A DNA stretch of 55,445 bases from Ruminococcus callidus. GTDB lineage: Bacteria; Bacillota; Clostridia; Oscillospirales; Ruminococcaceae. Shown here piece by piece: positions 14,101 to 43,312 of the stretch; within the stretch, counting starts at the first letter, position 1; every line of letters starts with the position of its first letter. Made by a program: the position numbers and the translations under genes. The stretch is from contig NZ_JAJFCK010000020.1 in assembly GCF_020709055.1 (NCBI RefSeq), positions 1-55,445 of the forward strand. Reading direction: 5' to 3'. A model generated the notes under the pieces. It did no database searches. It was not told the origin of the DNA and saw only the letters and a list, made by a program, of their open reading frames with translations.

Positions 14101-14112
14101 AGGAGGAATCAC

Positions 14113-16806: not shown

Positions 16807-19800
16807 TCACATCCCCTGCAATATCTCCTCCACTCGTTCTTCCAGCTCATCCGTCTCATAATCATTTTCCCGCAAGACCCGGATCGCCAGGTCATAATAT
16901 CGCTTGGCATTTTCCTTATCCCCTGCCTTGCGGTAATTGTCTGCCATCATAAGATACACCCATTCCATTTGTTCATGCAGTTCCCCGAAATTCTTCTGAA
17001 AGCACTCCAATGCCTCAGCTGCAACGATGTCACAATTCTGGAATTCTCCCAATTCTGACAGCACAGAACTATACCGCATCATCAAATTTGCAATCCTAAC
17101 TTCGCCATACACATCATGCTCCAGCAAAGTTTCCAATGCCTGTTCCATGGCAGCTTTGCATTTTTTCAGCAGTTCCCGGCTTGGCTGAGCGTTGTACCAG
17201 TCGATCAATGCACAGGCATAGGTAGCCCAGATCTCTCCGGTTTCTTCATGCTCCTCTCCATAGAGCTGATTTGCCAGTGCGATTGCCTCCTCGTAATTTT
17301 CTTCCATTTCAGAAAATTGTTTCATTTTCAAATTGCAGACTGCCACAGCGGTTTGAAATTGCACCAGTTTGGTACTTTCCTCCATAGGCTCTTCCTGCAT
17401 TTGCACTTGAAACAATTCCCGCTCTTTTTGATAACACGCCATTGCACGGGAAAACTGCTCACAGTCCCGATAAATATCCCCCAGTTCTGACCAAAATGAT
17501 ATATCTTGCTCCTGTTCCGCCGTTTGTTCTGCAAAGCACTGGTCTGCGTAGAACAACGTTTTTTCAAGGTAAAACGCACTATTGCAATCGATCCAATAAG
17601 CATTTTCCAGCAAGATAAAATTGGAATAAGCCGAAGCAAGCTTCATAGGCTCTCCGATTTCTTCTGCAAGCTGTAAGATCTGTTCTACACATGATTTCGT
17701 TCCTTCAAAATCACAGCGATCGGTTATATACCCTAACAGTATTCCACTCAGATCGCTGAGTTGTTCCTCTGCTGATAAATGCAGTTCCGCTATTTCTGCC
17801 GCCGCTTTTTCACTGGTTTCTGTATCATGCAGCTGTGCTGCAATATCCCGGATAAAAGACAGTGCATTGAATTGCCGTTGCCTGGAATCCTCCTCCAGCC
17901 TCAGAATCCGAAGTTCCTGCTGTGCCGCCCATAGAGCATCCTCATAACGATCTTCTCCCAGATACAGCGGATAACACATGGTGCCGAAGAAATACGAAAG
18001 TTCCGGATCATCACCTTGAATATGATGTGCCATATGATCCAGCCACTGCACAGATGCAAACCGTTGTTCCGCATTCTCGGATTCCTCAATGTAACTGGCA
18101 ATGGCACCTGACATAATCAGGATTCGTTTGCATTCCCTGCTGTTCGGACGCAGTTTTTCACACAGCACTTCTACGATCAGCGGATGAGTGGAAAGAATAC
18201 GCATTTCATCCTGATACACTTCGGAGATCCAGCCGCTTTGAATCAGCCGATCCAGGCTGTTGATCTCTGCCTCGTTTAAGTCACTGATGACTTCAAAATA
18301 CTGCCGTTCCATTGGCGTTGCACCGACCAGGGCAGCACAGCGAAGCACCTGCTTTTCCGATTCGGACAAATCCAGCACCGAGAACAGGATCTCCATATGA
18401 TGGAACGCTGTTTTTTCCCGAAGTGTGCTGTCTTTCAGCTGACGCACTTTGCCGTCATCTCCGGAAATGCCTTCTGCACAGAGTTTCTCATACATTTCAC
18501 GGGAGGTGAGCTGATGCAGTGCCATTTGCTTCGCCACCAGTTCCACTGCCATGGTATGCCCATTCAGTGCCTTCAATATGGCATCGGTGTACAAGTCCGG
18601 CTCTCGCTTTGTATAATACGCCATCATCTGATACAACGCCGATTCGTCAGACAAAATGTCTACCTCATACTGGGGAAAAATGCCGTCATAATCCACTCTG
18701 GAGGTCACCAGAATGGGGCAAGGCAGTTCTGTCAGGAAGTCCAGATTCCCGCAGTCACCGGTATCAAAATTGTCCAGCAGGATCAGATGCCTTGGCGTAC
18801 AGATTTGACGCAGTACCTGCAATTTTCGTTCCAGATATGCCGCATCACTTTCCCCGTCAGAGCGTGTGCAATGCACAATGGGAAAATTGGTATCGCTGAG
18901 AATGGTGTTCTCCATACTATCCAGAAACCGAACAAATACAACGGCGTCATACTCCTCCGCATACGTCATAGCATAGTGCTTTGCCAGTTCTGTTTTTCCG
19001 ATACCGCCAACACCGTGGAGCAGCAGAAACTTTTCCTGCTGCAAAAGGGTATGGATCTCCTGCAATTCGATATCCCGTCCGCAAAAGTAATTGTTACCCA
19101 AGGGCAGTTTTGTTTGCAGATAGGGCTTTGGCTGTCGAAACGAATCCAGAAAAGGCTCGATCTGTGCCAGAAGTTCCGCACAGGAGGCATATCGCTTTTC
19201 CGGATTGGCAGCCAAGGTCTTTCGCAGCAGCTCCGTGACCATGCGTCTGATTTCCGGAGAAGTTCCGGCAAGCACCGAGTCCGGGAACTCCGTATCCCAT
19301 ACCGCACGATTTCTCCTGTCCTTTACTTCCGGAGCACGGCGAAACAACAGGTACAACAACAGTCCGCCCAGCGTATAGACATCGGACACAACGCCGATCT
19401 TTCTGCGGTTTTGCTGTAACACTTCCGGTGCTGCCCACTTTGCTGTACAGGAGATCACTGCATCAGAAAGCCGGCTTTTTTCAACGGCACTGTCAAAATC
19501 AAACAGCATCACCAGTTCCGGCGTTTCCGGATAGAGCAGCACGTTGGCAGGCTTTAAATCCAGATAGAGATACCCATGCTGATGCAGATTGTCCAGTTGC
19601 TGTGCCACTGCACGCAGTACCCGAAATGTGTCATAAAGCGACAGTTCCTGCTGTTCCAGCGGAATGCTGTTCTGACAGTTCATAGCAATATACCGGGTGC
19701 CGTTTCCGGAAAAAACGCCCTGGACATTGCTGATACTGTTGCAGCTTTCCGGAAACTGCCGGAACTGCATCTGCTTTTGATACCCCCAGATAAAGCTTTG

Positions 19801-20055
19801 CATCTGCCGTTGAAAAGCTTCTTCGTCTGCCGCAAGCAAACTGCCGTCCTGCTGCCGAATCAGGTGTAGATTTTCCGGACAGAACTCTTTCAGCCGGAGA
19901 TAAAATTCGTTTTGTTCTCCGTCCCTGCAAACCGCCGTATAGACCAGACAGCTGGCTCCTGTTCCGATCAGTTCCTGAATCTGCACTGTGATCTGATGCT
20001 GGGTTCCAATGGCGGAAAGGGTCAGATGTGTACCGACTGGCAGTGGCGTTCGCAT
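16807..20055 (-). CDS. Ser/Thr kinase-STAND NTPase-TPR fusion protein
   Basis: Protein of 1082 aa with three parts. Residues about 20-305 are a kinase-like domain: glycine loop GTGASCLVY (31-39), Lys56 in LRLKEF, YLDLKPAN (Asp166, Asn171) in place of HRD, and DFD (186-188) in place of DFG. Residues about 320-620 are an NB-ARC/STAND ATPase: P-loop GVGGIGKT (348-355), Walker B LILLDNFD (Asp428), sensor VTSR. From about 620 to the end are helical TPR-like repeats. This is the design of ligand-sensing NTPases that oligomerise when the repeats bind a trigger, and many act in phage defence or regulation. The start at 20055 has GAGGAA seven bases upstream. It follows the small gene at 20091-20489 by 35 bases in the same operon. 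Confidence 0.88.
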   Translation of the reverse strand: MRTPLPVGTHLTLSAIGTQHQITVQIQELIGTGASCLVYTAVCRDGEQNEFYLRLKEFCPENLHLIRQQDGSLLAADEEAFQRQMQSFIWGYQKQMQFRQFPESCNSISNVQGVFSGNGTRYIAMNCQNSIPLEQQELSLYDTFRVLRAVAQQLDNLHQHGYLYLDLKPANVLLYPETPELVMLFDFDSAVEKSRLSDAVISCTAKWAAPEVLQQNRRKIGVVSDVYTLGGLLLYLLFRRAPEVKDRRNRAVWDTEFPDSVLAGTSPEIRRMVTELLRKTLAANPEKRYASCAELLAQIEPFLDSFRQPKPYLQTKLPLGNNYFCGRDIELQEIHTLLQQEKFLLLHGVGGIGKTELAKHYAMTYAEEYDAVVFVRFLDSMENTILSDTNFPIVHCTRSDGESDAAYLERKLQVLRQICTPRHLILLDNFDTGDCGNLDFLTELPCPILVTSRVDYDGIFPQYEVDILSDESALYQMMAYYTKREPDLYTDAILKALNGHTMAVELVAKQMALHQLTSREMYEKLCAEGISGDDGKVRQLKDSTLREKTAFHHMEILFSVLDLSESEKQVLRCAALVGATPMERQYFEVISDLNEAEINSLDRLIQSGWISEVYQDEMRILSTHPLIVEVLCEKLRPNSRECKRILIMSGAIASYIEESENAEQRFASVQWLDHMAHHIQGDDPELSYFFGTMCYPLYLGEDRYEDALWAAQQELRILRLEEDSRQRQFNALSFIRDIAAQLHDTETSEKAAAEIAELHLSAEEQLSDLSGILLGYITDRCDFEGTKSCVEQILQLAEEIGEPMKLASAYSNFILLENAYWIDCNSAFYLEKTLFYADQCFAEQTAEQEQDISFWSELGDIYRDCEQFSRAMACYQKERELFQVQMQEEPMEESTKLVQFQTAVAVCNLKMKQFSEMEENYEEAIALANQLYGEEHEETGEIWATYACALIDWYNAQPSRELLKKCKAAMEQALETLLEHDVYGEVRIANLMMRYSSVLSELGEFQNCDIVAAEALECFQKNFGELHEQMEWVYLMMADNYRKAGDKENAKRYYDLAIRVLRENDYETDELEERVEEILQGM

Positions 20056-24415: not shown

Positions 24416-24570
24416 AGCCAAACCAACCCTGGAAAGACACTTCCGGCAATTGCCGCTGTGAAAGCTGCGGCAAAGTCGTTCCGGAACAGCAGCTGCATTG
24501 GGAAAAGCGATTAGGCTACTGTGACACGTGTTTTGCAGAAATTCGGAAATATACTCCCAAGAAATCATAA
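24409..24570 (+). CDS. Small zinc-ribbon protein (53 aa)
   Basis: Opens MLKPNQPWKDTSGNCRC and has two CxxC pairs (CESC and CDTC) 19 residues apart, so it should bind one zinc ion. The stretch CESCGKVVPEQQLHW resembles CESCGQIVPESIVCW in the amidoligase encoded at 34673, so the two share a module. ATG at 24409 overlaps the previous stop (ATGCTAA), giving translational coupling. A strong terminator follows. The role is unknown, perhaps an adaptor. Confidence 0.62.
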   Translation: MLKPNQPWKDTSGNCRCESCGKVVPEQQLHWEKRLGYCDTCFAEIRKYTPKKS

Positions 24571-24573
24571 TGG

Positions 24574-24609
24574 AAAGGATCGGCTGCATGACAAGCCGGT
24601 CCTTTTTTT
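24574..24609 (+). terminator. Terminator after the zinc-ribbon gene
   Basis: AAAGGATCGGCT pairs with AGCCGGTCCTTT (one G-T pair) around an 8-base loop, followed by four to five Ts. Confidence 0.85.
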
Positions 24610-24672
24610 ATTACAGCCGTAACATTTCTTTGAACGGACAGGCGTTTGTCCTGCTCGTTTGCTACAATAGAA

Positions 24673-24948
24673 TCAAAGGGAATCTTTCTGCACCGCCACG
24701 GGAATTGTCGGATCAATCAAGTCCGTGATCTCCACCTGCAGCACTTTTGCCAGTGCCACCAGCTCCATATCTGTCACAAATCGTTCTCCATTTTCGATGC
24801 GGCGGATAAAGTGGTGGTCTACGTCATATCCGGCAATTTGCAGATTCTTTGCCAACTGTCGCTGAGAAAGCCCTTTTTCATGCCGGATCCGAATCAGATT
24901 CGGTCCGCAGATATTGTTGGTGCCCAAGGTGGTTTTCAGTTTGAACAT
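24673..24948 (-). CDS. XRE-family repressor, divergent from the GTPase operon
   Basis: Protein of 91 aa with a lambda-repressor-like HTH: IRIRHEKGLSQRQLAKNL, then a recognition segment HHFIRRIENGERFVTD. I choose ATG at 24948 (MFKLKTTLG), eight bases after GAGGG; an ATG at 24963 lacks a ribosome-binding site. The gene faces the large GTPase/kinase operon, and a palindrome in the intergenic region overlaps that operon's promoter, so it most probably represses that operon and itself. No ligand-binding domain is attached, so the inducing signal must come from another partner or from loss of the repressor. Confidence 0.82.
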   Translation of the reverse strand: MFKLKTTLGTNNICGPNLIRIRHEKGLSQRQLAKNLQIAGYDVDHHFIRRIENGERFVTDMELVALAKVLQVEITDLIDPTIPVAVQKDSL

Positions 24949-24985
24949 ATTGGTTTCCCTCATTTGAAGATATGGTAAATATTAT

Positions 24986-25014
24986 TTGACATCATATCTA
25001 TTATATGATATAAT
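24986..25014 (+). promoter_or_regulatory. Perfect consensus promoter of the GTPase/kinase operon
   Basis: TTGACA (24986-24991), exactly 17 bases, TATAAT (25009-25014). A full match to the sigma-A consensus, so it should be very strong unless repressed. Confidence 0.9.
24991..25009. promoter_or_regulatory. Palindromic operator within the promoter spacer
   Basis: ATCATAT-CTATT-ATATGAT, a perfect 7-bp dyad filling the space between -35 and -10. A fitting binding site for the divergent XRE protein. Confidence 0.78.
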
Positions 25015-25099
25015 GAGAATAGTGGTGGTTAATAGTATTCACCATTTGAAAAATAATTTTTTGAGAAGAAATATGCTTATCAGAAAGGTTGAGCTATCG

Positions 25100-27634
25100 A
25101 TGAATCGTGAAGAAACATTAGAACGGCTGAGTTCAGAGATTTCTTGTGTACAAAAACTATTGGATACCAAATATAGTGAGGTAATTGAAATTTCTTATCA
25201 GCAAAAGCTCCGGGAAATTCTGAAAAAAATGACTTTTTTTCAGGAAAAGCTAAAAAACAATACCTTTGAGATTTCCATTGTTGGCCTTGAAAAATCCGGA
25301 AAAAGTACTTTTGCAAACGCATTTATGGGGAATGATGTTCTTCCGACGAAAGACGCACGGTGCACATACACCGCAACCAGCATCCGGTTTGGCACGGAGA
25401 ACGATGCACAGGTCGATTTCTACTCCGATGCACAGTTCAACGAGGAATTTCACAGAAAGCTAAACCTTCTCGGCATTGAAAACCCGCAGCATTGGAGCGA
25501 ATGGTCAAAGGAATTGCTGGACAAAGAAACCGAACAATTGCCACCCTTGCGTTCGGAACAGAAAAATATCTATAACGACATCCTCGAAATCATCACAAAT
25601 CGGAGCAGCATTCAAAATCTGATCGGTTCTGAATCTCTGCATTTTGTTAACCATGAACTAGAAACCGAGGTAAAGGAATACATCGAAAATCCTGCAAAAG
25701 CACTTGCCGTTAAGGAAATTGTGATACGCTCCGATAAGCTTTCCGCCATGCGAAATGCGATCATATATGATGTCCCAGGTTTCGATTCTCCGACACAACT
25801 ACACAAAGACCAGACCAGAGCGTGGATGAAAAAATCGGATGCTGTCATTTTAATTGTCAATGCAGATCGCCCCAGTTTCAATGATTCTCTGGTACAGTTC
25901 TTTGAATCTGTGGACAAAGACGATGACGGCATTTCCATTGGGGAAAAGCTATTTGTTTTCGCAAACCGTGCAGATATTGCAACCACACTCCAGGATAATT
26001 TGCAGCGGATTCGAGAGGAACTGCAAAATTACAGAATCATGCCAACGGCATTGATTGCACAGCGCCTGACGGCCGGCTCCGCAAGGGCAAGAATTGAACT
26101 TGACAACGGCAATACGCAAAGTGCAATTTTACAAAGCCTAAAAGAAAAAGGACTTGCCGGAGACGGCATCGACACCATCCGCAGCCTGCTTGAAGACTAC
26201 AACAATACCGTTCGCCTGCAAGTGATGCAGCAGCGCATTGCCAACTTAAAGGAAAATGTGCTCGCACTATTCAGTGAACTCCGACAGGAAAATCAGATCG
26301 ACGGCAATTCCAGCATAGAATTGCAAATGGACAATCTGGTTGACGAACTAAAAAGAACGGCAAGGCAGAGAATCCATAACGCACTGGCAGAGTGCCGGAC
26401 GCAAATTGTACAGCAGTGCAAAGAGAACAAGCCAATCACGGATAAAGTCCGCAAAAATGCAATTCAAAGCATCGACCCTGTACGCTATCAGATCACCGAA
26501 GACGAGATTCGAAGAGCACAGTACGAGGAACTCTCCGGTGCAGGTGTTTTGGAGCGATTTGACGCATCCATACGGGACAGCAAATTTACTGCGATGTATG
26601 AGGAGTTTATCGACAATGTAGTACATTTGGCAGTGGAAGAGTATCGTGAGAGCGAAAAGAAGATTTTAACCGCATTTGAATCCGGTCTGGAACTGACACC
26701 TTCCCATCCTTTTTTCAAGGAGCTGGAGAAAGCACTGAAAAAGTACATCTCCGAACAATGCGGAAAAATTGCACCGGAAGGCTATTATAACAGCTTGATT
26801 CGCCGCTACTCCAGAAGCCTGTTTGAAATATTGATTTCCACACCCTTTGGAAACATCGCAAGATATAAAAAATTTGATGACGACCGACGCAACTTCTACA
26901 GCATCTCTCTGTTTACAGATGAAGAAAATCCGCAGATCCAGCCGGACAAACAGTCGATGCACTATCAGATCTTATTTCATCAGCAAATCAATTCCAACAA
27001 TGACCCGCAAAGCAATTCTTTGAACGATGCAATTGTAAAGGTGGAATCTGTGACAAACGAAGTGATCGCAGTTAACAGCCCGCTGTACCACAATCTGCAA
27101 AACTTCTGTGAAAAGCATCCGAACAATGCACTCGCCGAACTGGACACCCTTCTGGCTCAACTCCCACCGGTTGAAACGGCAGATGCCAATGCAATTCCAT
27201 TCTTTGCCATTCAGGAAAATCCAGCAGTCACCAAGCTGAATCAGCTGCTGGAACATGCACTACAGGAAAGTCCAAATTCCGCTGAAAGCCAGTTGACAGA
27301 AAGAGCATATGCGCAGTTCTTTCAGAACTACAGAAAAACAATTGAAAAGATTCCGAGCGAGTTCAACCAGGATGTCTGCATCCTGAAGAACATTTTAAAC
27401 GAACAGGTCATGAATGCGGTTTCCATTGAAATTCCTTTCTTGGATCTGGTAAAGCAGGATATTATCAGCTTACAAAAAAGTCTGGAAACTGCGGCATTCA
27501 CCTCGTTCATCAACATGGAAAAGGCACATATTTTAGAGGAAAAATACAATCAGCTGAATGCAGAGAATGAAAATCGGAAACGCAGGCTGGAAATCATTCG
27601 GGAAATCGACCGGATTCTCGCTGCGGAGGACTAA
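25100..27634 (+). CDS. Dynamin-like large GTPase
   Basis: Protein of about 844 aa. The GTPase domain lies at about 55-320: G1 GLEKSGKST (62-70), a G2 threonine in the TYTAT region near 90, G3 DVPGF (224-228), G4 NRAD (289-292). The rest is predominantly helical with long amphipathic and coiled segments, as in the stalk of bacterial dynamin-like proteins. There is no clear transmembrane segment, so membrane binding would be peripheral. The start is uncertain: ATG at 25100 has AAAGG 12 bases upstream; ATG at 25073 is an alternative. It is the first gene of a long operon, with the kinase gene starting 18 bases after its stop. Dynamin-like proteins remodel membranes and occur in phage-defence and stress loci. 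Confidence 0.85.
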   Translation: MNREETLERLSSEISCVQKLLDTKYSEVIEISYQQKLREILKKMTFFQEKLKNNTFEISIVGLEKSGKSTFANAFMGNDVLPTKDARCTYTATSIRFGTENDAQVDFYSDAQFNEEFHRKLNLLGIENPQHWSEWSKELLDKETEQLPPLRSEQKNIYNDILEIITNRSSIQNLIGSESLHFVNHELETEVKEYIENPAKALAVKEIVIRSDKLSAMRNAIIYDVPGFDSPTQLHKDQTRAWMKKSDAVILIVNADRPSFNDSLVQFFESVDKDDDGISIGEKLFVFANRADIATTLQDNLQRIREELQNYRIMPTALIAQRLTAGSARARIELDNGNTQSAILQSLKEKGLAGDGIDTIRSLLEDYNNTVRLQVMQQRIANLKENVLALFSELRQENQIDGNSSIELQMDNLVDELKRTARQRIHNALAECRTQIVQQCKENKPITDKVRKNAIQSIDPVRYQITEDEIRRAQYEELSGAGVLERFDASIRDSKFTAMYEEFIDNVVHLAVEEYRESEKKILTAFESGLELTPSHPFFKELEKALKKYISEQCGKIAPEGYYNSLIRRYSRSLFEILISTPFGNIARYKKFDDDRRNFYSISLFTDEENPQIQPDKQSMHYQILFHQQINSNNDPQSNSLNDAIVKVESVTNEVIAVNSPLYHNLQNFCEKHPNNALAELDTLLAQLPPVETADANAIPFFAIQENPAVTKLNQLLEHALQESPNSAESQLTERAYAQFFQNYRKTIEKIPSEFNQDVCILKNILNEQVMNAVSIEIPFLDLVKQDIISLQKSLETAAFTSFINMEKAHILEEKYNQLNAENENRKRRLEIIREIDRILAAED

Positions 27635-27652
27635 GGAAAAGGAGATAGAAAA

Positions 27653-28933
27653 ATGTCTGAATTGCAAGCAGGAATGCAAATTGAATTAGATGATAACATG
27701 GGAACGATTCAAATCGTCCGGAAATTAGGAGAGGGCGGCCAGGGATATGTCTATCTGGTGGACTATCTCGGAAACCAGATGGCATTGAAATGGTACAAAA
27801 AAGGTTCGATAAAGGACATGGAGGGATTTCGCAAGAACCTGCAAAACAACATCCGGGAACAGGCTCCCACAGACTCATTCCTGTGGCCCGTTGCCATCAC
27901 CCGTATGTACTACGATACATTTGGCTACATTATGAAACTGCGCCCCGATAACTACTATGACTTTTCTGATTTTCTGATCGGAAAGATTGACTTTTCCAGT
28001 GTTCACACGCTGCTGAATGCAGCCATCAACATTGTAGAGAGTTTCCGGATTCTGCATAACCGTGGATTCTCCTATCAGGATTTGAATGACGGCAACTTCT
28101 TCCTGAACCCTGAAACCGGAGATGTCCTGATCTGCGATAACGACAACGTTTCCCAGTTTGGAGAAAAGTCCGGGATTGCTGGAAAATGCAGATACATGGC
28201 ACCATCTATCGTTGTAGGAAGAAAGACGCCGGATAAGAGAACCGACCAGTTTTCTCTTGCCGTTGTCCTTTTCCTGCTTCTGCTGAGAAACCACCCTCTG
28301 GAGGGCGAGCAGACGCAGAGCAAGGCCGTCATGACGGAACAACGACAGAAGCGCTATTACGGCGAATCCCCTGTTTTCATTGCCGACCCCAAGGATGCGT
28401 CCAACCGTCCGGTAAAGGGCGTGCACAATAACTTCCTGATGAGATGGCCGCAGATGCCGGTATATATTCAGAATACCTTTATCAAGGCTTTCAGCAAGGA
28501 AGTCATGTGCGAAGACAAAATGGGAATCACGGAAAAGGAGTGGCTGCAAAATCTGCTTCGGTTCCAGTCGGAAGTCATCATCTGTCCCAATTGCGGAAAA
28601 GAAACCAGATATACCACTGAAAATGCAACGTGTATGTGCTGTCATCAGCCAATCACGCACATTGGCTGGATCCAGACACAATATTTCCGCATTCCGATTT
28701 TCCCCAAGCAGGAGATTGTTACAGCCTACATCACAGATTGCTACGACCAAAACGAATGCCGGACAGTTACAGCAAAGGTCGTACAGAATAAAACCAAAAC
28801 CAAAATTGCACTCATGAACAAGTCCGGCGAATCTTGGCGGATCAACAATGAAACTGTCGCTCCCGGAGAGCGTGTTCTGATTCAAAAGGGAATCCGCATT
28901 CAAATCAAAAATGAGTATATGGAAATCAAATAA
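27653..28933 (+). CDS. Protein kinase with C-terminal zinc ribbon (TerY-P type)
   Basis: Protein of 426 aa. Kinase domain about 15-300: glycine loop GEGGQGYVY (26-34), Lys46 in MALKWY, YQDLNDGN (Asp143, Asn148) where HRD is normal, and DND (162-164) where DFG is normal. The catalytic acidic residues and Lys are kept, so it may still be active. A zinc ribbon follows at about 311 (CPNCGK, then CMCC), and the last 75 residues are beta-rich and may be a FHA-like or Ig-like domain (KTKIALMNKSGESWRI). These substitutions resemble kinases of the TerY-P triad. A good ribosome-binding site (AAGGAG) precedes the ATG. vWA and PP2C genes follow. Confidence 0.85.
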   Translation: MSELQAGMQIELDDNMGTIQIVRKLGEGGQGYVYLVDYLGNQMALKWYKKGSIKDMEGFRKNLQNNIREQAPTDSFLWPVAITRMYYDTFGYIMKLRPDNYYDFSDFLIGKIDFSSVHTLLNAAINIVESFRILHNRGFSYQDLNDGNFFLNPETGDVLICDNDNVSQFGEKSGIAGKCRYMAPSIVVGRKTPDKRTDQFSLAVVLFLLLLRNHPLEGEQTQSKAVMTEQRQKRYYGESPVFIADPKDASNRPVKGVHNNFLMRWPQMPVYIQNTFIKAFSKEVMCEDKMGITEKEWLQNLLRFQSEVIICPNCGKETRYTTENATCMCCHQPITHIGWIQTQYFRIPIFPKQEIVTAYITDCYDQNECRTVTAKVVQNKTKTKIALMNKSGESWRINNETVAPGERVLIQKGIRIQIKNEYMEIK

Positions 28934-28952
28934 CAGAAGAGGAGACTAGACT

Positions 28953-29801
28953 ATGTCTGAAAATCTAAGCAGTTTTCTGGGAAATGCAGAGAGCATCCCG
29001 AAAAGAGTCATGCCGATCTTTTTCCTGATCGATACCTCCGGAAGCATGGAGGGCAAAAAAATCGGTGCCGTCAATTCTGCAATCGAGGAACTGATTCCGG
29101 ATCTGCGGCATCTTTCCGAATCGCAGGCAGATTCCGAAATCAAACTGAGCGTGTTGAAATTTTCCACCGGCTGTGAATGGGTCACGCCTGCTCTGATGTC
29201 TCTGGACGCCTTTGATGATTGGGAACCGCTGGACGCCAACGGCCTGACCGATCTGGGAGCTGCATTTCTGGAGCTGAACGACAAGCTGTCCAAAAATGGA
29301 TTCATGGACCGAGGCGCAGCATCTTCCGGATTTTATGCGCCTGTCATCCTGCTCCTCTCTGACGGCGAGCCAACAGATGACTACCTCACTGCACTGAAAA
29401 AGCTACAGCAAAATAAGTGGTATCAGGCTGCGTTGAAAATTGCAATTGCAATCGGCGAAGATGCCAACCGGGAAGTGCTGAAAAAAGCAATTCGCAATGT
29501 TGAACTTCTGTTTACCGTAAATGACATTGGAAGCCTCAAAAAGATCATCCGTTTCATTGCAGTCACCTCCTCACAGATCGCAAGCACCTCTGCAACGGTT
29601 TCCGAGGATTCTGCGGAAGCACCGGCAGATGTGAAGGACGTCCGTTCTACGTCTGCGGAACATCAGATGGCGGAAGCCGCAAAGGTTATGCTGGAAGAAG
29701 AAAAGGAATCTGCATACAGCAGTATAGAAAGCACCGAAGAATCGCCCGAACCGATGATACTGGGTTCGGATGATTCCGATGATGATGACGAATGGGATTA
29801 A
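28953..29801 (+). CDS. von Willebrand factor A domain protein (TerY-like)
   Basis: Protein of 282 aa. The vWA domain (about 18-210) has a complete metal-ion-dependent adhesion site: DTSGSM (Asp27, Ser29, Ser31), Thr99 in LTDLG, Asp137 in LLSDGEP. The C-terminal 70 residues are acidic and low-complexity, rich in Ser/Glu, ending in a run of Asp, with many possible phosphorylation sites for the neighbouring kinase. Length and fold match TerY. Gene spacing is 19 bases to the kinase gene and 3 bases to the phosphatase gene, with GAGGAG before its ATG. In the TerY-P system the kinase, vWA protein and phosphatase form a phospho-signalling unit. Confidence 0.9.
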   Translation: MSENLSSFLGNAESIPKRVMPIFFLIDTSGSMEGKKIGAVNSAIEELIPDLRHLSESQADSEIKLSVLKFSTGCEWVTPALMSLDAFDDWEPLDANGLTDLGAAFLELNDKLSKNGFMDRGAASSGFYAPVILLLSDGEPTDDYLTALKKLQQNKWYQAALKIAIAIGEDANREVLKKAIRNVELLFTVNDIGSLKKIIRFIAVTSSQIASTSATVSEDSAEAPADVKDVRSTSAEHQMAEAAKVMLEEEKESAYSSIESTEESPEPMILGSDDSDDDDEWD

Positions 29802-29804
29802 ACA

Positions 29805-31268
29805 ATGATGATGTACGAAGGATTTGCCGTTTCAGAAAAGGGCTATCAGCATATCTTGAACCATACCGTATGCCAGGACAGTACACAATATCTGCAGGAT
29901 GCGGACTGTGTCGTTGCAACTGTGGCAGACGGTCACGGCAGCAAGCAGTACTTCCGGAGCGACCGAGGTTCCCGCTTTGCCGCAGAGATCGCTTGCAATA
30001 AGATTCGGGAATTTCTAAAATCAATCACCTTTCCGTTTCCAGACTCCAAAACGAAAAAAAGTGTGGTGACACAGCTGATCCACAGCATCATTACGGAATG
30101 GCATATTGCCGTGAGAAATGACCTGATCAAATCCCCTTTCACGCCGAACGAACTGGAGAGAGTGCCGGAAAAGTACCAGAAAACCTTTCAATTTTTCACC
30201 GAGGAAAACTACAGAGCACATACGGAAAGCGAGGTCTCAGACCTGATACAAAAGGAGCATTCTCACGTACAGAAAGCCTACGGTACTACTCTAATTGCGG
30301 TCGGGTTATGCAAATCCTACGCCATCGGTCTGCACATCGGCGATGGGAAATGCGTTGCCCTATACGAGGACGGGACCATGGACGAGCCGATTCCATGGGA
30401 TGAGAACTGCCATTTGAACCGCTGCACTTCCATTTGCGATAAAAATGCAGCCAGTGAATTTCGCTGCCACATCTGGGACAACCAGATTCCCGTTGCCATT
30501 TTTCTAGGAACGGACGGTATCGATGATACATTTGCCGAGATGCTGCACTCTTTTTACCGCAACGTTGCGCTTGATTTTTTACACGACAATTTCCGAAAGC
30601 GAACAGAAATGCTGCAAGCCAATCTTGCAAACATCTCCAAATCCGGCAGTCATGACGATGTTTCCATTGCGGGGATTCTGGATGTGCAGAAGTTATCCGC
30701 TATCGAACAAACCTTACAACAGATCACAAAATTGGAGACGCTAACTGCACAGAAAAAGCATTTGCAGGACACCATTCAGGAATTGCAGTTCCAGCTGGAA
30801 AAGATGCAGCGCCTTTTGTCACAATCGGCTGAAACGCCGGAAACCGAGGAAAAAATCAAGCGGTATCTGGAAAAGAAACGTAAAATCGAGGAAAAGCTCT
30901 CCGAACAGCAGCAGAAGCTGGCAGGTGTCACACGGGATATTGCAGCAGTGCAAAGAGGCTGGGAAGAAAAAGATGAGGCTTCCGGTCAGGTGCAAGCTGC
31001 TGATACAGAGGAGAAAACACAAGACAACGCTGCAATCTGTCCCACGGTTTCAGAGGATGACCGGTCACAGGAAATCACAGCGCAGCAAGATGCACAGGAA
31101 GCCCACATTCCCGCCTGTGAAACAGAAACCGCATCCGCACAGCCAGAGGAATTCTCTCTGGATGCAGCAGAACCGAATTCGGCAGAAAGCGACAATGCCG
31201 GCGAAGTAAATGACGCAGTTCCGGAAGAGATCATCAGCGAAAGCGAAAACGAATGGGAAGAGGAGTGA
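29805..31268 (+). CDS. PP2C-family protein phosphatase with coiled-coil acidic tail
   Basis: Protein of 487 aa (start among ATGs at 29805, 29808 or 29811). The PP2C domain (about 1-290) has the metal-binding ADGHGS (Asp42), a GDG block (HIGDGKC), FLGTDGIDDTF and a final SGSHDDVSIAGI with Asp-Asp, so both metal sites look intact. A coiled coil follows (about 300-390, heptad Leu with LEKKRKIEEKLSEQQQK), then an acidic disordered tail that ends in Glu, like the tail of the vWA protein. It is expected to reverse phosphorylation by the kinase. It lies three bases after the vWA gene, so the two are translationally coupled. Confidence 0.9.
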   Translation: MMMYEGFAVSEKGYQHILNHTVCQDSTQYLQDADCVVATVADGHGSKQYFRSDRGSRFAAEIACNKIREFLKSITFPFPDSKTKKSVVTQLIHSIITEWHIAVRNDLIKSPFTPNELERVPEKYQKTFQFFTEENYRAHTESEVSDLIQKEHSHVQKAYGTTLIAVGLCKSYAIGLHIGDGKCVALYEDGTMDEPIPWDENCHLNRCTSICDKNAASEFRCHIWDNQIPVAIFLGTDGIDDTFAEMLHSFYRNVALDFLHDNFRKRTEMLQANLANISKSGSHDDVSIAGILDVQKLSAIEQTLQQITKLETLTAQKKHLQDTIQELQFQLEKMQRLLSQSAETPETEEKIKRYLEKKRKIEEKLSEQQQKLAGVTRDIAAVQRGWEEKDEASGQVQAADTEEKTQDNAAICPTVSEDDRSQEITAQQDAQEAHIPACETETASAQPEEFSLDAAEPNSAESDNAGEVNDAVPEEIISESENEWEEE

Positions 31269-31273
31269 GAAAC

Positions 31274-31630
31274 ATGGCGATCAAAGAGGCACACATTGTT
31301 CTTGCACGCTGCCCCCAGTGCAACCGGCGCTTATACGGCATCCGAGTCGAAAAGCAGCCAGACCACTGGGCACTGACATGGGCGTTCCCGATTGACGAGA
31401 GCAAAGCAAAATCGGAGGGTTACGACGAAACTGTTTTGAACGGAACGTTTCACCCGTCCCCCGATTATAACGGCTGTCCCTTTTGCGGAACCAAAACTTT
31501 TTTACACTGTCCACGCTGTTCCAAGATTACCTGCTACCATGGGGAATCCTATGCAACGTGTGCCTGGTGCGGATTATCCGGGGAAACAAAAACACAAAAC
31601 AACATGTCGCTAAAAGGCAGCAGTATGTGA
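31274..31630 (+). CDS. Cysteine-rich zinc-ribbon protein (TerY-C like)
   Basis: Protein of 118 aa with four CxxC pairs (CPQC near residue 15, CPFC near 67, CPRC near 79, CAWC near 95), making two zinc ribbons or one rubredoxin-like double knuckle, and a central WALTWAFPIDE segment. It resembles the zinc-binding C-terminal part found fused to TerY vWA proteins, here as a separate protein; this is an inference. ATG at 31274 follows AGGAG. Probably a scaffold or regulator for the kinase/vWA/phosphatase complex. Confidence 0.65.
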   Translation: MAIKEAHIVLARCPQCNRRLYGIRVEKQPDHWALTWAFPIDESKAKSEGYDETVLNGTFHPSPDYNGCPFCGTKTFLHCPRCSKITCYHGESYATCAWCGLSGETKTQNNMSLKGSSM

Positions 31631-31648
31631 GAAAAGAGGAATCTGATT

Positions 31649-33628
31649 ATGAAGTGCAGCAAATGCAATAAGACATGGAGCTTGTTTGACGAAAAATTGT
31701 CAGATAAGCAGCATTGTCCCCATTGCAAAGAAAAATTTATCTCTAAGTTCCAGTATTTCGATTCGGTTTCGGAGGGAATTGCCTACTGTCTGGAAATGGG
31801 CGGAAAGGAAATCCTGAAAAACAAATCCAAAATGAACGCCTATATCAATGACCTGATGGGCAATGATTTTCCGGATCACAATCTGGTGAAAAATGCCATC
31901 GACAGCGACATTGGTTCGATTCTGATCGATGCAGACGAAAAGGACGAAAAAGCAAAACAGGCTGCCGTACAGCAGGCCATTGGCAGACTGATTCGTGAAT
32001 TCTCGACAGAGAAAAAGAAAGCCGAAGAAGTTGTCACGTATTTTACAAACGCACTGCAATGGAAACTTCCCGCAGCAACAGCGGAAAAAACAGGGGCTGT
32101 GAATGCAGCAGCGAATCCGGCTGCACCGAAGCCCGCTGCAAAAGCCGCCGCACCGCCGACACAGAAACAGCAGCCGGCAGTGTCGAATGCTTCTCAGACA
32201 AGCCCGAATCCGGCAGGTCAAAATGCAACATTTTCACCTGCTGCTGCACCCGGAACTGCAGCACTTCAGAATGCTGCAATCGCCGGTCAGCCAAATCTTG
32301 CCGCAACTCCAAACGGACAGAATCCTCGGCAGCAAGCACCGAACGCTACCTTTCAGGGTGCACAGCCCTATCCTGTCCCGCCGGTGCCGAACGGACAAGC
32401 TTATCCCAACGGAACGATTGCACCGCAAAATGCAAACGGTGCACTTCAAAACAATCCTAACGGCACTCTGAATCCGGAAAATGCTGCCGTCAAAAAGAAG
32501 AAGTCGCCGCTTGGCTGCCTGATCGCAATCCTGATTCTGCTGCTGCTTCTCGCCGGATTGGTCATCTGGTATCTGATGAGCCACAAAAATGAACCGGAGC
32601 AAACGGTGTCCACTCCTGCCATCGTCGCCGAAGTCGAAGAGAGCAGCGAAGCGTCCACCGAACCGGAAACAGAATCCAAAGAAGAGACCACAGAAAAAGC
32701 GACAGAGACAGAGTGCACAACGGAAGCAACAGAGGAACAGACAACAGAGAAAACAGCTGGCAATACGGCAACTTATGGAGTAAAATCTTTAGCACATTTT
32801 AATACACATGATGGAACATATAAAATTCAATATAATCCGGTAAACAATAGAATCTACTATATGCAAGACGAAGCTAAAATCATGTATTACGACCTGAATA
32901 CAAATAAAACAGAAACAGCGGTTGATTTATCCGAAAGCGATTACCGAGATGCATTCAAAACATATGGGGTGAATCCGTATACCGGAAAGCTTTACCTGAA
33001 TGTTCAGAATGAAAATATTGGTATTTACGATGTAGAGGCAGATAAAAGTGTATGCTATATAGAAGAGTCTTACAACGTTGTTTCGCCAACAGCTTTTACT
33101 TTTTTGTCAGAAAATGAAGCCTTTACAAATGGATATCAATTTTCTTTGGATACGGGTGATGTTCTCGCTTCCGGAAAAGTTCCTTATGTAGGTTATCCTT
33201 CCTTCTCTTATCCTTTTTTGTATAATGATGAATATTATTATTTGACTGCTCTTTCAAGCAGCGTTGATGATAAAATTAGTATTGTAAAAACGACACAGCT
33301 GCTAACTTCGGACGGAGAATATTCTGAAAAAATAAAAACAAACATTGATGAAAATCCGTTCTTTGTAGACACAGATGCCGTGTATTACATGACAGAAGAC
33401 CATTCCATCTATCAGGTGAATCTTGACTATCAGGAATCTGATACAGGTGCCTTAAATAAAAAAAGTGACGAAAACCATGATATCCTAATCATAGACGGCA
33501 AAGACATCGAAAACTCCAGCACCAATTATCTCAGCGACAACATTGTAGCTTTCACCAAAATTGACGACTCCACATTCGCCGTTCTGGACGGTCTGGATAA
33601 CTCCCTAAAATTGGTTTCGGCAAAGTAA
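31649..33628 (+). CDS. Membrane sensor-like protein: zinc ribbon, TM helix, extracellular beta-propeller
   Basis: Protein of 659 aa. It begins with a zinc ribbon (CSKC near 3, CPHC near 23), then a helical domain to about 130, an Ala/Pro/Asn-rich linker (150-280), one transmembrane helix (about 286-308, LGCLIAILILLLLLAGLVIW), a Thr/Glu-rich outer linker (315-370), and a C-terminal domain of repeated beta strands like a propeller (YKIQYNPVNNRIYYMQD, GKLYLNVQNENIGIYD). Lys residues before the helix suggest an intracellular N-terminus and an outer C-terminus. It is the last gene of the operon. It may sense envelope change and pass the signal to the kinase unit. Codon use becomes clearly AT-richer after about 32768. 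Confidence 0.75.
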   Translation: MKCSKCNKTWSLFDEKLSDKQHCPHCKEKFISKFQYFDSVSEGIAYCLEMGGKEILKNKSKMNAYINDLMGNDFPDHNLVKNAIDSDIGSILIDADEKDEKAKQAAVQQAIGRLIREFSTEKKKAEEVVTYFTNALQWKLPAATAEKTGAVNAAANPAAPKPAAKAAAPPTQKQQPAVSNASQTSPNPAGQNATFSPAAAPGTAALQNAAIAGQPNLAATPNGQNPRQQAPNATFQGAQPYPVPPVPNGQAYPNGTIAPQNANGALQNNPNGTLNPENAAVKKKKSPLGCLIAILILLLLLAGLVIWYLMSHKNEPEQTVSTPAIVAEVEESSEASTEPETESKEETTEKATETECTTEATEEQTTEKTAGNTATYGVKSLAHFNTHDGTYKIQYNPVNNRIYYMQDEAKIMYYDLNTNKTETAVDLSESDYRDAFKTYGVNPYTGKLYLNVQNENIGIYDVEADKSVCYIEESYNVVSPTAFTFLSENEAFTNGYQFSLDTGDVLASGKVPYVGYPSFSYPFLYNDEYYYLTALSSSVDDKISIVKTTQLLTSDGEYSEKIKTNIDENPFFVDTDAVYYMTEDHSIYQVNLDYQESDTGALNKKSDENHDILIIDGKDIENSSTNYLSDNIVAFTKIDDSTFAVLDGLDNSLKLVSAK

Positions 33629-33660
33629 GCCTTTCTTACAAATTTCAACCCTATCACATA

Positions 33661-33703
33661 AAAAATCCGGCAAGGTTTCCTCCCAAACCTCACCGGATTT
33701 TTT
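33661..33703 (+). terminator. Bidirectional terminator ending the GTPase/kinase operon
   Basis: AAAAATCCGG, then AGGTTT/AAACCT with a short loop, then CCGGATTTTTT. The stem is long and has an A-run on one side and a T-run on the other, so it can serve the operon and the convergent gene at 33733. Confidence 0.88.
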
Positions 33704-33732
33704 CACTTCTTCCCTACTCTATCAGCTTCCCC

Positions 33733-34443
33733 TTATCGATTCCGCCGCAGCGGCTCCTTTCCATAGTATGACTCCGCATCATGCTCCATTCGCAGGTCAT
33801 ATTCCTTGACCGGAACATACAGATTATGCTCTGGAAAATCCCTTTTCCGCATCGAGATCCATTTCTTATCATGTTCCGGATGTCTGGGCATCGGAAGCTC
33901 CGGCAGATTCTTTCGATAGATACACCGAATGTTCGGGTGCAGCCATAGATGATTGACGCAAAACCAATATGTTTCTTCGATATCATCTACATACTTTGCC
34001 AGCGGTATGGTACTTTCCACTTTTTCTTCTGCCACGGCAATACGAGCAAATGGTTCTGCAAATTGCAGATGATCCCAATCATTTTCCCTGTCACAATTCG
34101 ACACCACCGGCATGACTTCGTCAATTTTATCCTCCGGTATTTGCCGCTTTTTCGGATAATACTGCACAATACAATAGGCTCCCAGCAGACGGTTCAAATC
34201 GCAGTATACAGACTCCGCACAAGCCAGCAAGCCAAAATCCACACACAAATCACGGAATTGACTGCTGCCCCATGTGGTCAGATAGCTAAAGTATTTCACC
34301 TCTTCCTGCACAGTCACACCATCCCAAACCGCAAGAATCAGTTTCAGATGATAGTCGCAGCAATCCTCGTAAAGCAGATAATCTGTCACCATTGCCTTGT
34401 ATCCTATTGTAAATTCGTTTGGTTTTCGTTTTTTCTGAGACAT
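33733..34443 (-). CDS. Unknown island protein, 236 aa
   Basis: Starts MSQKKRKPNEFTIGYKAM with GGGAGG nine bases upstream. Composition is rich in Tyr, Trp and Cys with alternating charged helices and strands (DYHLKLILAVWDGVTVQEEV, FCVNHLWLHPN), and the C-terminus ends in a basic RRNR. I recognise no domain. It stands alone on the minus strand between the GTPase/kinase operon and the amidoligase unit, under one of the three shared island promoters. It may be a regulator or an element-specific factor. Confidence 0.6.
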   Translation of the reverse strand: MSQKKRKPNEFTIGYKAMVTDYLLYEDCCDYHLKLILAVWDGVTVQEEVKYFSYLTTWGSSQFRDLCVDFGLLACAESVYCDLNRLLGAYCIVQYYPKKRQIPEDKIDEVMPVVSNCDRENDWDHLQFAEPFARIAVAEEKVESTIPLAKYVDDIEETYWFCVNHLWLHPNIRCIYRKNLPELPMPRHPEHDKKWISMRKRDFPEHNLYVPVKEYDLRMEHDAESYYGKEPLRRNR

Positions 34444-34611: not shown

Positions 34612-34660
34612 AATTCCGGTAAGGTAAATTCTTTCAGCCTTACCGGAATTTTTGTTTTTG
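34612..34660 (+). terminator. Strong hairpin in the amidoligase leader (attenuator-like)
   Basis: Perfect 13-bp stem AATTCCGGTAAGG/CCTTACCGGAATT with a 13-base loop and a T-rich run, ending immediately before the ribosome-binding site GGAGG of the amidoligase. A TATAAT at 34609-34614 overlaps its 5' arm. It may insulate the gene from upstream transcription or act as an attenuator. Confidence 0.7.
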
Positions 34661-34672
34661 GAGGAACTTGAA

Positions 34673-35764
34673 ATGGAAGAAGAAGTAAGAATCTGTGACT
34701 ACTGCGGAAGAGTGCTTGCGGAGGGAGAAGGCACACCGGTAGACGATGAGCTGCTCTGCGATGACTGTGTTGAGGAACACTGTGTCACCTGCGACCACTG
34801 CGGCGAGACGATCTGGGAACAGAACAGCGTCTCCGATGAAGACACCTGCCTTTGCCAGGACTGCTTTGATGCCCACTACTATCGATGCGAATCCTGCGGG
34901 CAGATCGTTCCGGAAAGCATCGTCTGCTGGCACAGCGACTTGCCCTACTGCGAAAGATGCTTTGACGAATTTGAGGACGAGATCGAGGAGTACGGCTACA
35001 AGCCCACACCCATTTTCTACGGAAACGGAAAGCGATACTTTGGCGTAGAACTGGAAGTGGATGAAGGCGGCAAGGACAACGACAACGCCGCAGCTCTCAA
35101 AAGCATCGCCAATGTGCATGAGGAAAATATCTACATTAAGTCGGACGGCAGCTTGGAGGATGGCTTTGAAATTGTAAGTCATCCCATGACCTTAGAGTAC
35201 CACACAGAGGAAATGAACTGGAAAGAAATCCTTCGGGAGGCAGTTGCCATGGGCTACCGTTCCCATCAGACATCGACTTGCGGTCTGCACATTCACGTCA
35301 ATCGCAATGCTTTTGGGGACAATCAAGCAGAACAGGAAGATGTCATCAGCCGGATTCTGTTCTTTGTGGAAAAGCATTGGAACGAGTTGTTCACATTCAG
35401 CCGCAGAAGCAGCTACAACATGAGCCGATGGAGTGCAAGATTTGGCTTTGAAAAGACTGGAAAACAAATCCTAGAGAAAGCGAAAAGCGGCTGCAACGGC
35501 AGATACGTTGCGGTCAATCTCAATAACTACCACACCATTGAGTTTCGCCTGTTCCGAGGGACACTCAAATACAACACTTTCATCGCCACATTGCAGATGG
35601 TCAACCACATCTGTGATGCGGCGATTTCTTTGTCTGAGGAGGGCATCGATGCCATGAGCTGGTCAGAATTTGTAAGTTCCATCGAAGAACCGGAACTGAT
35701 CCAGTATCTCAAAGAGAGAAGACTGTACATCAATGAAGTGGTGACAGAAAGCGAGGAGATGTAA
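34673..35764 (+). CDS. Amidoligase with N-terminal zinc-ribbon modules
   Basis: Protein of 363 aa. Residues 1-100 contain four CxxC-type zinc ribbons in series (CDYC, CDDC, CDHC/CQDC, CESC/CERC), a LIM-like array. From about 110 it is a glutamine-synthetase-like amidoligase (PF12224 type): FGVELEVDEG, SDGSLEDGFEIVSHP, CGLHIHVNR with paired His, and TIEFRLFRG. These enzymes join an amine to a carboxylate using ATP, and family members are found with glutamine amidotransferases in systems that make peptide or nucleotide-like metabolites or tag proteins. Here a class II amidotransferase gene lies two bases downstream. The start at 34673 follows GGAGG at eight bases. Confidence 0.88.
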   Translation: MEEEVRICDYCGRVLAEGEGTPVDDELLCDDCVEEHCVTCDHCGETIWEQNSVSDEDTCLCQDCFDAHYYRCESCGQIVPESIVCWHSDLPYCERCFDEFEDEIEEYGYKPTPIFYGNGKRYFGVELEVDEGGKDNDNAAALKSIANVHEENIYIKSDGSLEDGFEIVSHPMTLEYHTEEMNWKEILREAVAMGYRSHQTSTCGLHIHVNRNAFGDNQAEQEDVISRILFFVEKHWNELFTFSRRSSYNMSRWSARFGFEKTGKQILEKAKSGCNGRYVAVNLNNYHTIEFRLFRGTLKYNTFIATLQMVNHICDAAISLSEEGIDAMSWSEFVSSIEEPELIQYLKERRLYINEVVTESEEM

Positions 35765-35765
35765 G

Positions 35766-36731
35766 ATGTGTGCAGTGTTTGGATTTTTAGACTACAAGGG
35801 TAAGACCAGTAATGCCGTTTTGAAAAAGCTGATACACTACCTCTCAGTCGCTGCGGAAGTCCGTGGCACAGACGCAACGGGAATCGCCTACGTCCGGGAC
35901 GGCAGCATGGTCACCTACAAAAAGCCCAAGCCGTCACACAAGGTCAAGCTGTTCTTCCCCAGAGGGACACGATCGGTCATCGGGCACACCCGGTTCACGA
36001 CACAGGGCAGCGAAAAGCGGAACTGCAACAACCACCCGTTCGAGGGGCACTGCGGCACAGAGGCGTTCGCCCTCGCCCACAACGGCGTGCTGTACAACGA
36101 CAGGGAGCTTCGCCGGGAACAGCATCTCCCAACGACACCGATCGAAACCGACAGCTACATCGCCGTGCAGCTTCTGGAACAGGGGCAGCAGCTGGACACG
36201 GAAAACATCAAACGCATGGCAGGACTTGTGGAGGGCAGCTTTGTCTTTACGATTTTGAGAAATGACAATACGCTGTTTCTGGTGAAAGGCAATAACCCGC
36301 TGACTTTGTATCATTTTCCCGCACTGGGATTGTACGTTTACGCCAGCACAAAGAGCATTTTGGACAATGCTTTGAAAAAGGTAAAGCTGAATGGCAAGTA
36401 CAGCGAAGTCGATGTTTCAGAGGGTGAAATCGTCAAAATGTCTTCGAGTGGCAATCTCCATAAGAGCACCTTTACCATGCAGGACTACATCCATACCATG
36501 TTCAACCCATACAATTGGAATTACCTGAACTATGCAAAATGGTGGGAAGCGAACGAACGGGAAGAACTGCTGTTGGAGTACTGCGGTACATTTGGCGTTT
36601 CGGAAGAAGAAGTAGAATTGTTGCTGGAAGTCGGCTATGATCCGGACGAGATCGAAGAACTGCTCATGGATACAGCGGCAATGGAGGAAGCAATTAACGA
36701 GGCGAAAACACTGTTACAGTGTGAAGCATAA
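35766..36731 (+). CDS. Class II glutamine amidotransferase
   Basis: Protein of 321 aa. The N-terminus is MCAVFGFLDYKG: after removal of Met, Cys2 is the N-terminal nucleophile of Ntn-type amidotransferases. The glutamine-binding Arg is in VIGHTRFTTQG and the oxyanion Asn and Gly in ALAHNGVLYND, so the glutaminase site is complete. The last 80 residues form an acidic helical extension (EELLLEYCGTFGVSEEEVEL). It probably feeds ammonia to the amidoligase encoded next to it. Its ATG follows the amidoligase stop by one base, so expression is coupled. Confidence 0.9.
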   Translation: MCAVFGFLDYKGKTSNAVLKKLIHYLSVAAEVRGTDATGIAYVRDGSMVTYKKPKPSHKVKLFFPRGTRSVIGHTRFTTQGSEKRNCNNHPFEGHCGTEAFALAHNGVLYNDRELRREQHLPTTPIETDSYIAVQLLEQGQQLDTENIKRMAGLVEGSFVFTILRNDNTLFLVKGNNPLTLYHFPALGLYVYASTKSILDNALKKVKLNGKYSEVDVSEGEIVKMSSSGNLHKSTFTMQDYIHTMFNPYNWNYLNYAKWWEANEREELLLEYCGTFGVSEEEVELLLEVGYDPDEIEELLMDTAAMEEAINEAKTLLQCEA

Positions 36732-42826: not shown

Positions 42827-43312
42827 ATGCCAGACGGAACAGAAAAAGATGTCCGAAGTGTCGTCGATCTTGTATTGCAATGCTCAGACATCACCAAAGA
42901 GCTAGTACAGCAAGCAATGCGTGACTATTTGCAGCAAAACCAAGATAAAAGCACACATGGAAAGACAAGTCTTCGGAAATTAGCCGAACAAAGCAACGGA
43001 AATTTAGATTCCATCGAAGTTTCTTCTGCAAATTTGCAGGATTTCAAGGAAATTGCAAAAAAATATGACATAACATATGCCATAAAACAAGATTCCAGCA
43101 CTACCCCACCCACAAACCATGTGTTTTTTGCGACAAATGACACGGATAATTTCAAGCGTGCTTTCACGGAGTACGCAGCCGAAGTATCAGAAAAAGCGAA
43201 AACACGGTATGAGATACCACGAGAACAGTTCAAAGCACGTGCTGCTAAGATCGAAAAAGAGCCACGCCAAAAAGAACAGGTTCGAACCAGAGAAAAACAA
43301 GAAACGAGATGA
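42827..43312 (+). CDS. pcfB: PcfB-like protein (DUF3801)
   Basis: Protein of 161 aa. The N-terminal helix (VVDLVLQCSDITKELVQQAM), a central beta part (FKEIAKKYDITYAIKQDSS, HVFFATNDTDNFKRAF) and a basic C-terminal tail match the PcfB/DUF3801 family, an accessory of the relaxosome or coupling protein. Its stop overlaps the start of the coupling protein gene (ATGA). Conserved gene order PcfB then VirD4-type ATPase supports the call. Confidence 0.82.
   Translation: MPDGTEKDVRSVVDLVLQCSDITKELVQQAMRDYLQQNQDKSTHGKTSLRKLAEQSNGNLDSIEVSSANLQDFKEIAKKYDITYAIKQDSSTTPPTNHVFFATNDTDNFKRAFTEYAAEVSEKAKTRYEIPREQFKARAAKIEKEPRQKEQVRTREKQETR

Follow-up and report, generated by a model that had tools for sequence, protein, structure and literature searches.

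A 55,445-nucleotide contig of Ruminococcus callidus (NZ_JAJFCK010000020.1; this whole stretch is called the window below) carries an operon of six genes in the order DYN-KIN-VWA-PP2C-TERYC-MEM, with a divergent gene for an XRE-family DNA-binding protein beside it. This arrangement had been put forward in the original prediction, and all of its open reading frames (ORFs), directions and domains were present. The six genes lie on the plus (+) strand. DYN (25073..27634) encodes a dynamin-like GTPase of 853 amino acids (Dynamin_N, 3.2e-18) resembling BDLP, SynDLP and the mitofusins, and KIN (27653..28933) a Ser/Thr kinase with a C-terminal zinc ribbon and a short tail (Pkinase, 5.3e-18). They are followed by VWA (28953..29801), a TerY-like vWA protein (VWA, 1e-9) with the MIDAS motif DxSxS...T...D in its sequence, PP2C (29805..31268), a phosphatase with a charged C-terminal extension and an acidic tail (PP2C_2, 8.2e-32) that carries the DGHG and DD motifs, and TERYC (31274..31630), a stand-alone TerY_C metal-binding domain (PF15616, 1.5e-7, above the gathering score). 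The last gene, MEM (31649..33628), encodes a one-pass membrane protein made up of a zinc ribbon (residues 1-33), a helical domain (34-143), a disordered linker, a transmembrane segment (about 286-308) and a predicted outer beta-propeller (about 390-659).

The kinase, the vWA protein and the phosphatase had been likened to the TerY-P triad, and the features of that triad were all found: a TerY-like vWA protein with a MIDAS, a PP2C phosphatase and a kinase fused to a zinc ribbon, encoded by three adjacent genes. The protein first described only as cysteine-rich proved to be a TerY_C domain, which strengthens the TerY-P reading; in the R. callidus operon the vWA and TerY_C parts are two separate genes. 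Residues D143, N148 and D162 of KIN and its ribbon cysteines 311, 314, 327 and 330 were invariant in 32 aligned rows.

For the dynamin, the listed start was a TTG coinciding with the first base of a promoter that matched at 12/12 positions; the protein is 853 amino acids long in its 100% homologue cluster, and we therefore moved the start to the ATG at 25073. The P-loop and DxxG motifs of the G domain are present, with G76, K77 and S78 and D233, P235 and G236 invariant in a 30-row alignment. The predicted structure had a pLDDT of 84.9 and a pTM of 0.52, and its best Foldseek matches were SynDLP (9.8e-14) and BDLP (1.2e-13), with Cj-DLP and mitofusins also among them, so that the overall fold is predicted to be of the BDLP type. 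The Foldseek TM-scores were low (0.2-0.3 by query) and, together with the pTM, leave the placement of the domains unsure.

Linkage of the dynamin to the triad

Scanning a single genome of each species with the 30-row DYN alignment gave 225 confirmed relatives, and the ORFs of the best 80 loci were searched with profiles of the other operon genes. The order DYN-KIN-VWA-PP2C was found in 4/4 informative loci of the near clade: L019, which is R. callidus ATCC 27760 and 98.5-100% identical to the window in DNA per gene, and L020, L021 and L022, whose dynamins are 71%, 46% and 44% identical to that of the window. The contig of L023 stops within DYN and is hence uninformative. TERYC follows PP2C in L019, L020 and L021, with no TERYC match in L022, and MEM is present in L019, in L020, where it is cut by the contig end, and in L022, which has two MEM-like genes; the L021 contig stops about 320 bp past TERYC, before MEM could show. 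The six-gene order in full was seen in two species-level loci. As had been predicted, the dynamin, the triad and the membrane protein recur together as a unit (L019, L020, L022). On inspection by eye, the PP2C of L022 (5818-7008), the locus that lacks a TERYC gene, has a C-terminal CxxC-type cysteine motif.

The remaining 75 of these 80 best dynamin loci had no triad (0/75) and no PP2C or TERYC match at all; 55 of them had at least 4 kb of sequence downstream of the dynamin and 62 had at least 4 kb on at least one side. Weak lone matches were found to the kinase in L033 and to the vWA protein in L027. The triad-linked dynamins stand alone, with a neighbouring dynamin ORF in 0/4 loci; across loci with at least 900 bp downstream, such a neighbour was found in 28/71, some of which look like one split gene.

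The triad was also approached from its own side. When 99 relatives were searched for the vWA protein, it turned up at 9 places in 8 genomes, including the R. callidus genome G001, and a kinase profile at an E value of 1e-60 found 15/394 genomes of the order and 3/398 sampled across the phylum, with G001 in both samples. We collected 28 other kinase loci (L011-L018, L116-L120 and L121-L135), some from viral contigs and several on contigs that are cut, with L116 and L117 identical in kinase sequence, and a dynamin was present in 0/28 of them. A vWA protein and a PP2C lay within 8 kb of the kinase in 22/28, the six others being L011, L018, L117, L120, L128 and L129. The order in L016 and L017 is vWA-PP2C-kinase and in L018 vWA-kinase, all three beside P-type ATPase-like genes, and L018 also has genes that look TerD-like by eye. 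In L118 (4675-16381) a type ISP restriction enzyme is directly followed by TerY_C, kinase, vWA and PP2C, along with two helical-domain proteins (see below), and in L126 (3776-19798) an FtsK-type ATPase and small ORFs, WXG100-like by eye, lie beside the triad and four helical-domain proteins. In L116 (4928-13331), an IMG/VR contig, PglZ and BrxL are directly followed by TerY_C, kinase, vWA and PP2C; here a TerY-P triad is attached to a BREX-like set. These varied neighbours are in keeping with the published view that TerY-P is a module attached to different systems (PMC11090510).

Three further comparisons bear on the history of the join. Among 120 listed dynamin clusters, 8 of the 24 at 40% identity or more matched the longest contig of one of 120 listed kinase clusters exactly in size, all 8 of them at 56% identity or more, and 0/96 of the more distant dynamin clusters did so; a jittered control gave a mean of 0.098 matches and a maximum of 2. 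The distance matrices of dynamin and kinase were correlated over 12 pairs, one near-duplicate pair (L022, P0019) among them, with r 0.927, and 0/20000 permutations reached as high a value. In unrooted trees, where a single group stands for all rows on one side of a branch, the 12 dynamin-linked kinases formed one group with support of 100/100 (46 rows, with L016-L018 left out and 9 further kinase clusters added) and 11 triad-linked dynamins formed one group with an SH-aLRT of 100 by a quick method (41 rows, with 24 of the 75 triad-free loci, 6 further clusters and 7 of the 8 contig-linked clusters, P0019 being left out).

A single joining event followed by co-inheritance would be the simplest history of dynamin and triad. 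The order DYN-KIN-VWA-PP2C was kept in all four informative loci of the near clade, and on this conserved order and the single groups in both trees we rejected the suggestion that the join is an accident of this island. The expectation that the GTPase and the triad occur together held within the clade and failed elsewhere (0/28 kinase loci, 0/75 dynamin loci); in the remaining genomes that we examined the two were not linked, and the joint system is hence particular to this clade rather than general. Judged from these sequence comparisons, the dynamin-triad unit is a real, conserved and clade-restricted variant of TerY-P.

The helical domain and ectodomain of MEM

Residues 34-143 of MEM are helical, with block means of pLDDT between 69 and 92 from residue 41 of the predicted structure. 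A profile built from seven seeds of this domain found 19 proteins in 13/26 kinase loci outside its seeds (2076 ORFs) and none in the 4847 ORFs of 76 other dynamin loci. The refined profile found the domain in 18/28 dynamin-free kinase loci, including 16/22 of those with a complete triad; it was refined on triad loci, and the seven-seed figure of 13/26 is the less biased. The match in L116 was weak (6.3e-5). Several full-length MEM-profile matches lay outside triad loci (L048, L069, L072, L078 and L080), some of them high-scoring; because no protein of the 76 other dynamin loci is matched by the helical-domain profile, we took these to be transmembrane or low-complexity matches.

The partners of the domain are diverse. 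It precedes a transmembrane segment and an outer propeller in the window, or a transmembrane segment and an outer LRR_5 region in L022; it is fused to LRR_5 with no clear transmembrane segment in L012 and L013, with L014 looking alike, and elsewhere to Sel1 repeats (L125, L128), an FGE-sulfatase domain (L135) and a DEAD helicase (L124). Copies thus occur on many partner proteins, and none among the matches was on a kinase, a vWA protein or a PP2C. A Pfam search of ten helical-domain proteins at E values up to 1 gave no family common to the domain. From its recurrence near triads on proteins so varied, the helical domain is a candidate adaptor that would plug sensors and effectors into the switch, presumably by binding to the triad. 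By eye, the helical-domain/LRR_5 protein and triad of L012, L013 and L014 lie near similar-looking lipoprotein-like and membrane protein genes.

The outer part of MEM falls, over residues 376-560, into two deeply different allele classes. The 41 full-length class B rows were 51-58% identical to the window over this region and 96-99% identical over residues 1-140, the alleles being representatives of 90% clusters, a sampling that favours divergent ones. Close relatives of MEM outnumber those of the dynamin, and we considered whether MEM belongs elsewhere; this was rejected because the inner and transmembrane parts are retained in the extra MEM clusters, whose differences lie mainly in the ectodomain, with some change in the linker and stalk besides.

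Regulatory region and surroundings of the operon

The XRE-family protein is encoded at 24673..24963 on the minus (-) strand (Pfam HTH_31, 3.1e-8; HTH_3, 8.7e-8). Between it and DYN, at 24986..25014 (+), lies a sigma-70 promoter, TTGACA-17-TATAAT with a TG before the -10 element, that matches at 12/12 positions and is the sole site above 9/12 within 24500-33900. Its spacer holds a perfect 7-bp inverted repeat with a 5-bp centre (24991..25009), of which there is no other exact copy in the window. Two further perfect 7-bp inverted repeats occur in the same A+T-rich 181 bp, and so the XRE operator that we tentatively place at 24991-25009 is a guess, one that would fit repression by the XRE protein. 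In L020-L022 the sequence upstream of DYN gave no XRE match. Having been seen in R. callidus only, XRE was rejected as a core part of the system, and of the proposed repressor control there is left the hint given by the inverted repeat.

The neighbourhood is that of a mobile region, as had been supposed, with a P4-type primase, two integrases, MobA and TraG-like genes; an ORF upstream of the L022 dynamin looks by eye like an integrase fragment. R. callidus ATCC 27760 can be aligned with window positions 14699-55081 at 97.5-97.9% identity and lacks positions 4775-14698, which in the window are flanked by 30-bp direct repeats (4745-14738 with the repeats, 9.9 kb) and encode a PD-T4-6-like kinase, a type II methyltransferase and a type IIG restriction enzyme. 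A tblastn search of plasmids with DYN found partial dynamin matches of 23-27% identity in three records only, scans of viral contigs with DYN and with class B MEM found no relative, and PHROGs gave weak or generic matches only.

Other genes of the window were noted in passing. A 1082-amino-acid protein (16807-20055), present in ATCC 27760 as well, combines a kinase domain, tetratricopeptide repeats and weak matches to STAND/NB-ARC-type ATPases and is another likely signalling or defence protein. Adjoining the operon at 34652-36731 are genes for an Amidoligase_2 protein, with a sub-threshold LIM match, and a glutamine amidotransferase-like protein, possibly a peptide-modification pair. A single ORF of 1008 amino acids (43309-46335) joins part of a type IV secretion system coupling protein to a serine recombinase; a TraG-like C-terminal part lies at 53903-54769, and an inserted element may interrupt the coupling gene. 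At the end of the window (54764-55445) are two 275-bp direct copies that are 95% alike.

Possible function and relation to known systems

Many bacteria carry TerY-P triads, some of which are protective against phages. We favour a reading that uses all the parts, in which MEM is the input, KIN, VWA, PP2C and TERYC the switch and DYN the output. In the pathway that we infer, MEM would be a surface receptor that crosses the membrane once and meets a variable ligand with its outer propeller, the signal passing inward through the cytosolic zinc ribbon and helical domain, which would couple the receptor to the kinase-vWA-PP2C switch; TerY_C would be a split-off metal-binding part of that switch. The switch would alter the phosphorylation of itself, of the dynamin or of both, and the dynamin might then assemble at the membrane, either to seal or to break it or to hold back lysis. 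Expression of the operon in R. callidus may be kept low by the XRE protein, acting at the promoter region. We regard it as about an even chance that the operon is such a TerY-P signalling cassette, gated by a receptor and acting through a membrane dynamin, most likely a mobile response to phages or other attack on the envelope.

Of the possible functions we hold defence to be the likeliest. TerY-P protected Pseudomonas aeruginosa PAO1 against phages (PMC10889362), and DynA of Bacillus subtilis delays phage lysis (PMC8844932). Related triads that adjoin PglZ and BrxL (L116) or a type ISP restriction enzyme (L118) were counted for this reading, as were the restriction and other defence-like genes that the window itself encodes. 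A bolder form of the idea, which we hold to be possible and clearly less probable, is a receptor-kinase-dynamin immune pathway in which strain-specific, diversifying ectodomains, a TerY-P phospho-switch and a plug-in adaptor would direct the dynamin to the attacked membrane, with swapped adaptor-fused sensors and effectors making a modular system across the Bacillota.

Several observations weigh against the favoured reading. DYN has no membrane-spanning hydrophobic stretch (maximum hydropathy 1.12). PADLOC matched it to LeoBC only (14.5 bits, E value 0.0036, no stretch passing alone), gave no TerY-P match, in a release that may or may not hold TerY-P models, found nothing for VWA and TERYC, and for KIN found kinase matches of the mad6/PD-T4-6 type only, at 52 bits or less; it left the triads of L017, L116 and Escherichia coli uncalled as well. 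In some dynamin loci without a triad, a single vWA gene (L064, L065) or kinase gene (L041, L048) lies further off, and the helical-domain match is absent in 10/28 kinase loci. In MEM, the disordered linker (144-285) varies too (0.103 within class B), and among the 45 of 53 rows that are at least 600 amino acids long, distinct sequences are about as many for the ectodomain (18) as for the helical domain (19), so that the two parts differ in the depth of variation, not in the number of variants. The class B proteins are known as proteins only, and that they belong to this operon is presumed. The restriction genes are confined to the separate 9.9-kb segment that ATCC 27760 lacks, and a megablast search of the operon against plasmid and phage records found no record with it.

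An unlikely though not far-fetched alternative is that the system serves envelope-stress repair and not immunity, with MEM sensing damage to the wall or membrane by an antibiotic or a bacteriocin and the triad turning the dynamin on for sealing. The fold and family of DYN would suit this, as DynA is reported to act in membrane surveillance against antibiotics (PMC8844932), and so would the published link of TerY-P triads to tellurite resistance (PMC11090510) and the TerD-like neighbours seen by eye in L018. However, a general damage sensor would not be expected to vary so deeply in its ectodomain between otherwise near-identical proteins, the kinase family is of rare and patchy occurrence in the order, and the operon lies among mobile genes. 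Somewhat less probable again is abortive infection, in which the activated dynamin would permeabilise or remodel the membrane and kill the infected cell, with PP2C as the brake: a regulator gene and a kinase paired with a phosphatase would suit so dangerous an output, and related triads occur with restriction and helicase proteins, but DynA reportedly helps to keep the membrane intact and does not break it (PMC8844932), and no pore-like part was recognised in the operon. Least probable in our judgement is recognition of kin or partners, or exclusion of mobile elements, the variable ectodomain recognising surface proteins of other cells during conjugation or contact. The two discrete ectodomain classes in near-identical proteins and the conjugation genes in the window (MobA, TraG-like) point that way, but among the neighbours of MEM we recognised neither a polymorphic partner nor an immunity gene.

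The operon is a compact case for the study of TerY-P, as it brings together a likely input in its receptor-like transmembrane protein with a variable outer domain, a switch and a likely output in its dynamin. By way of the candidate adaptor domain, the inputs and outputs of other triads could be sought, and phospho-regulation of the dynamin, should it occur, would open regulated dynamin action in bacteria to direct tests.

The open-access literature, with subscription journals mostly outside the search, yielded no described TerY-P set with a dynamin. The original suggestion that nothing of the kind had been described nevertheless goes too far, as GTPase-linked triads of another GTPase class (PMC7159879) and TerY-P combined with varied effectors and systems (PMC11090510) are in print, of which the version with a dynamin and a receptor-like protein is a variant. 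The operon shares with TerY-P the vWA protein with a MIDAS, the PP2C, the kinase fused to a zinc ribbon, the adjacency of the genes and the presence of TerY_C; unlike the TerY-P sets described, it is led by a dynamin, has TerY_C as a separate gene and adds a one-pass receptor-like protein. The YegI-PphC-YegL genes of E. coli (L115) are close together and homologous to kinase, PP2C and vWA (profile scores of 55, 33 and 65 bits), but they are distant, with no dynamin or MEM listed there and no TerY_C match. Among bacterial dynamin-like proteins, BDLP, SynDLP, Cj-DLP1/2 and DynA have the G-domain motifs and predicted fold in common with DYN, which differs in being single and in lying with a kinase triad, most bacterial dynamin genes being described as paired (PMC6104087). 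Membership in the Eleos (LeoABC) dynamin defence system was rejected, as DYN had no qualifying match to a Leo protein.

The nearest precedent that we found is the actinobacterial GTPase-linked triad, the third theme of the GAP1-N2 GTPase-centric systems as outlined in PMC7159879, in which a kinase-zinc ribbon protein with a beta-rich domain, a PP2C and a stand-alone vWA protein are likewise joined to a GTPase and to membrane or extracellular parts. Those systems are actinobacterial and centre on a GAP1 protein together with another class of GTPase, which bears two zinc ribbons at its N terminus, whereas the R. callidus operon has a single dynamin and belongs to the Oscillospiraceae. Membership among them was rejected, since DYN matches Dynamin_N and has no zinc ribbon match; no GAP1 or FNIII-repeat component was named in Pfam scans of 30 window proteins, which did not include a search with GAP1's own model. 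The helical domain of MEM resembles the EAD adaptors outlined in the same source, likewise small helical domains fused to varied sensor or effector domains beside a signalling core, but it has no shared Pfam family, and the copy on a core component that is typical of EADs was not seen among its matches.

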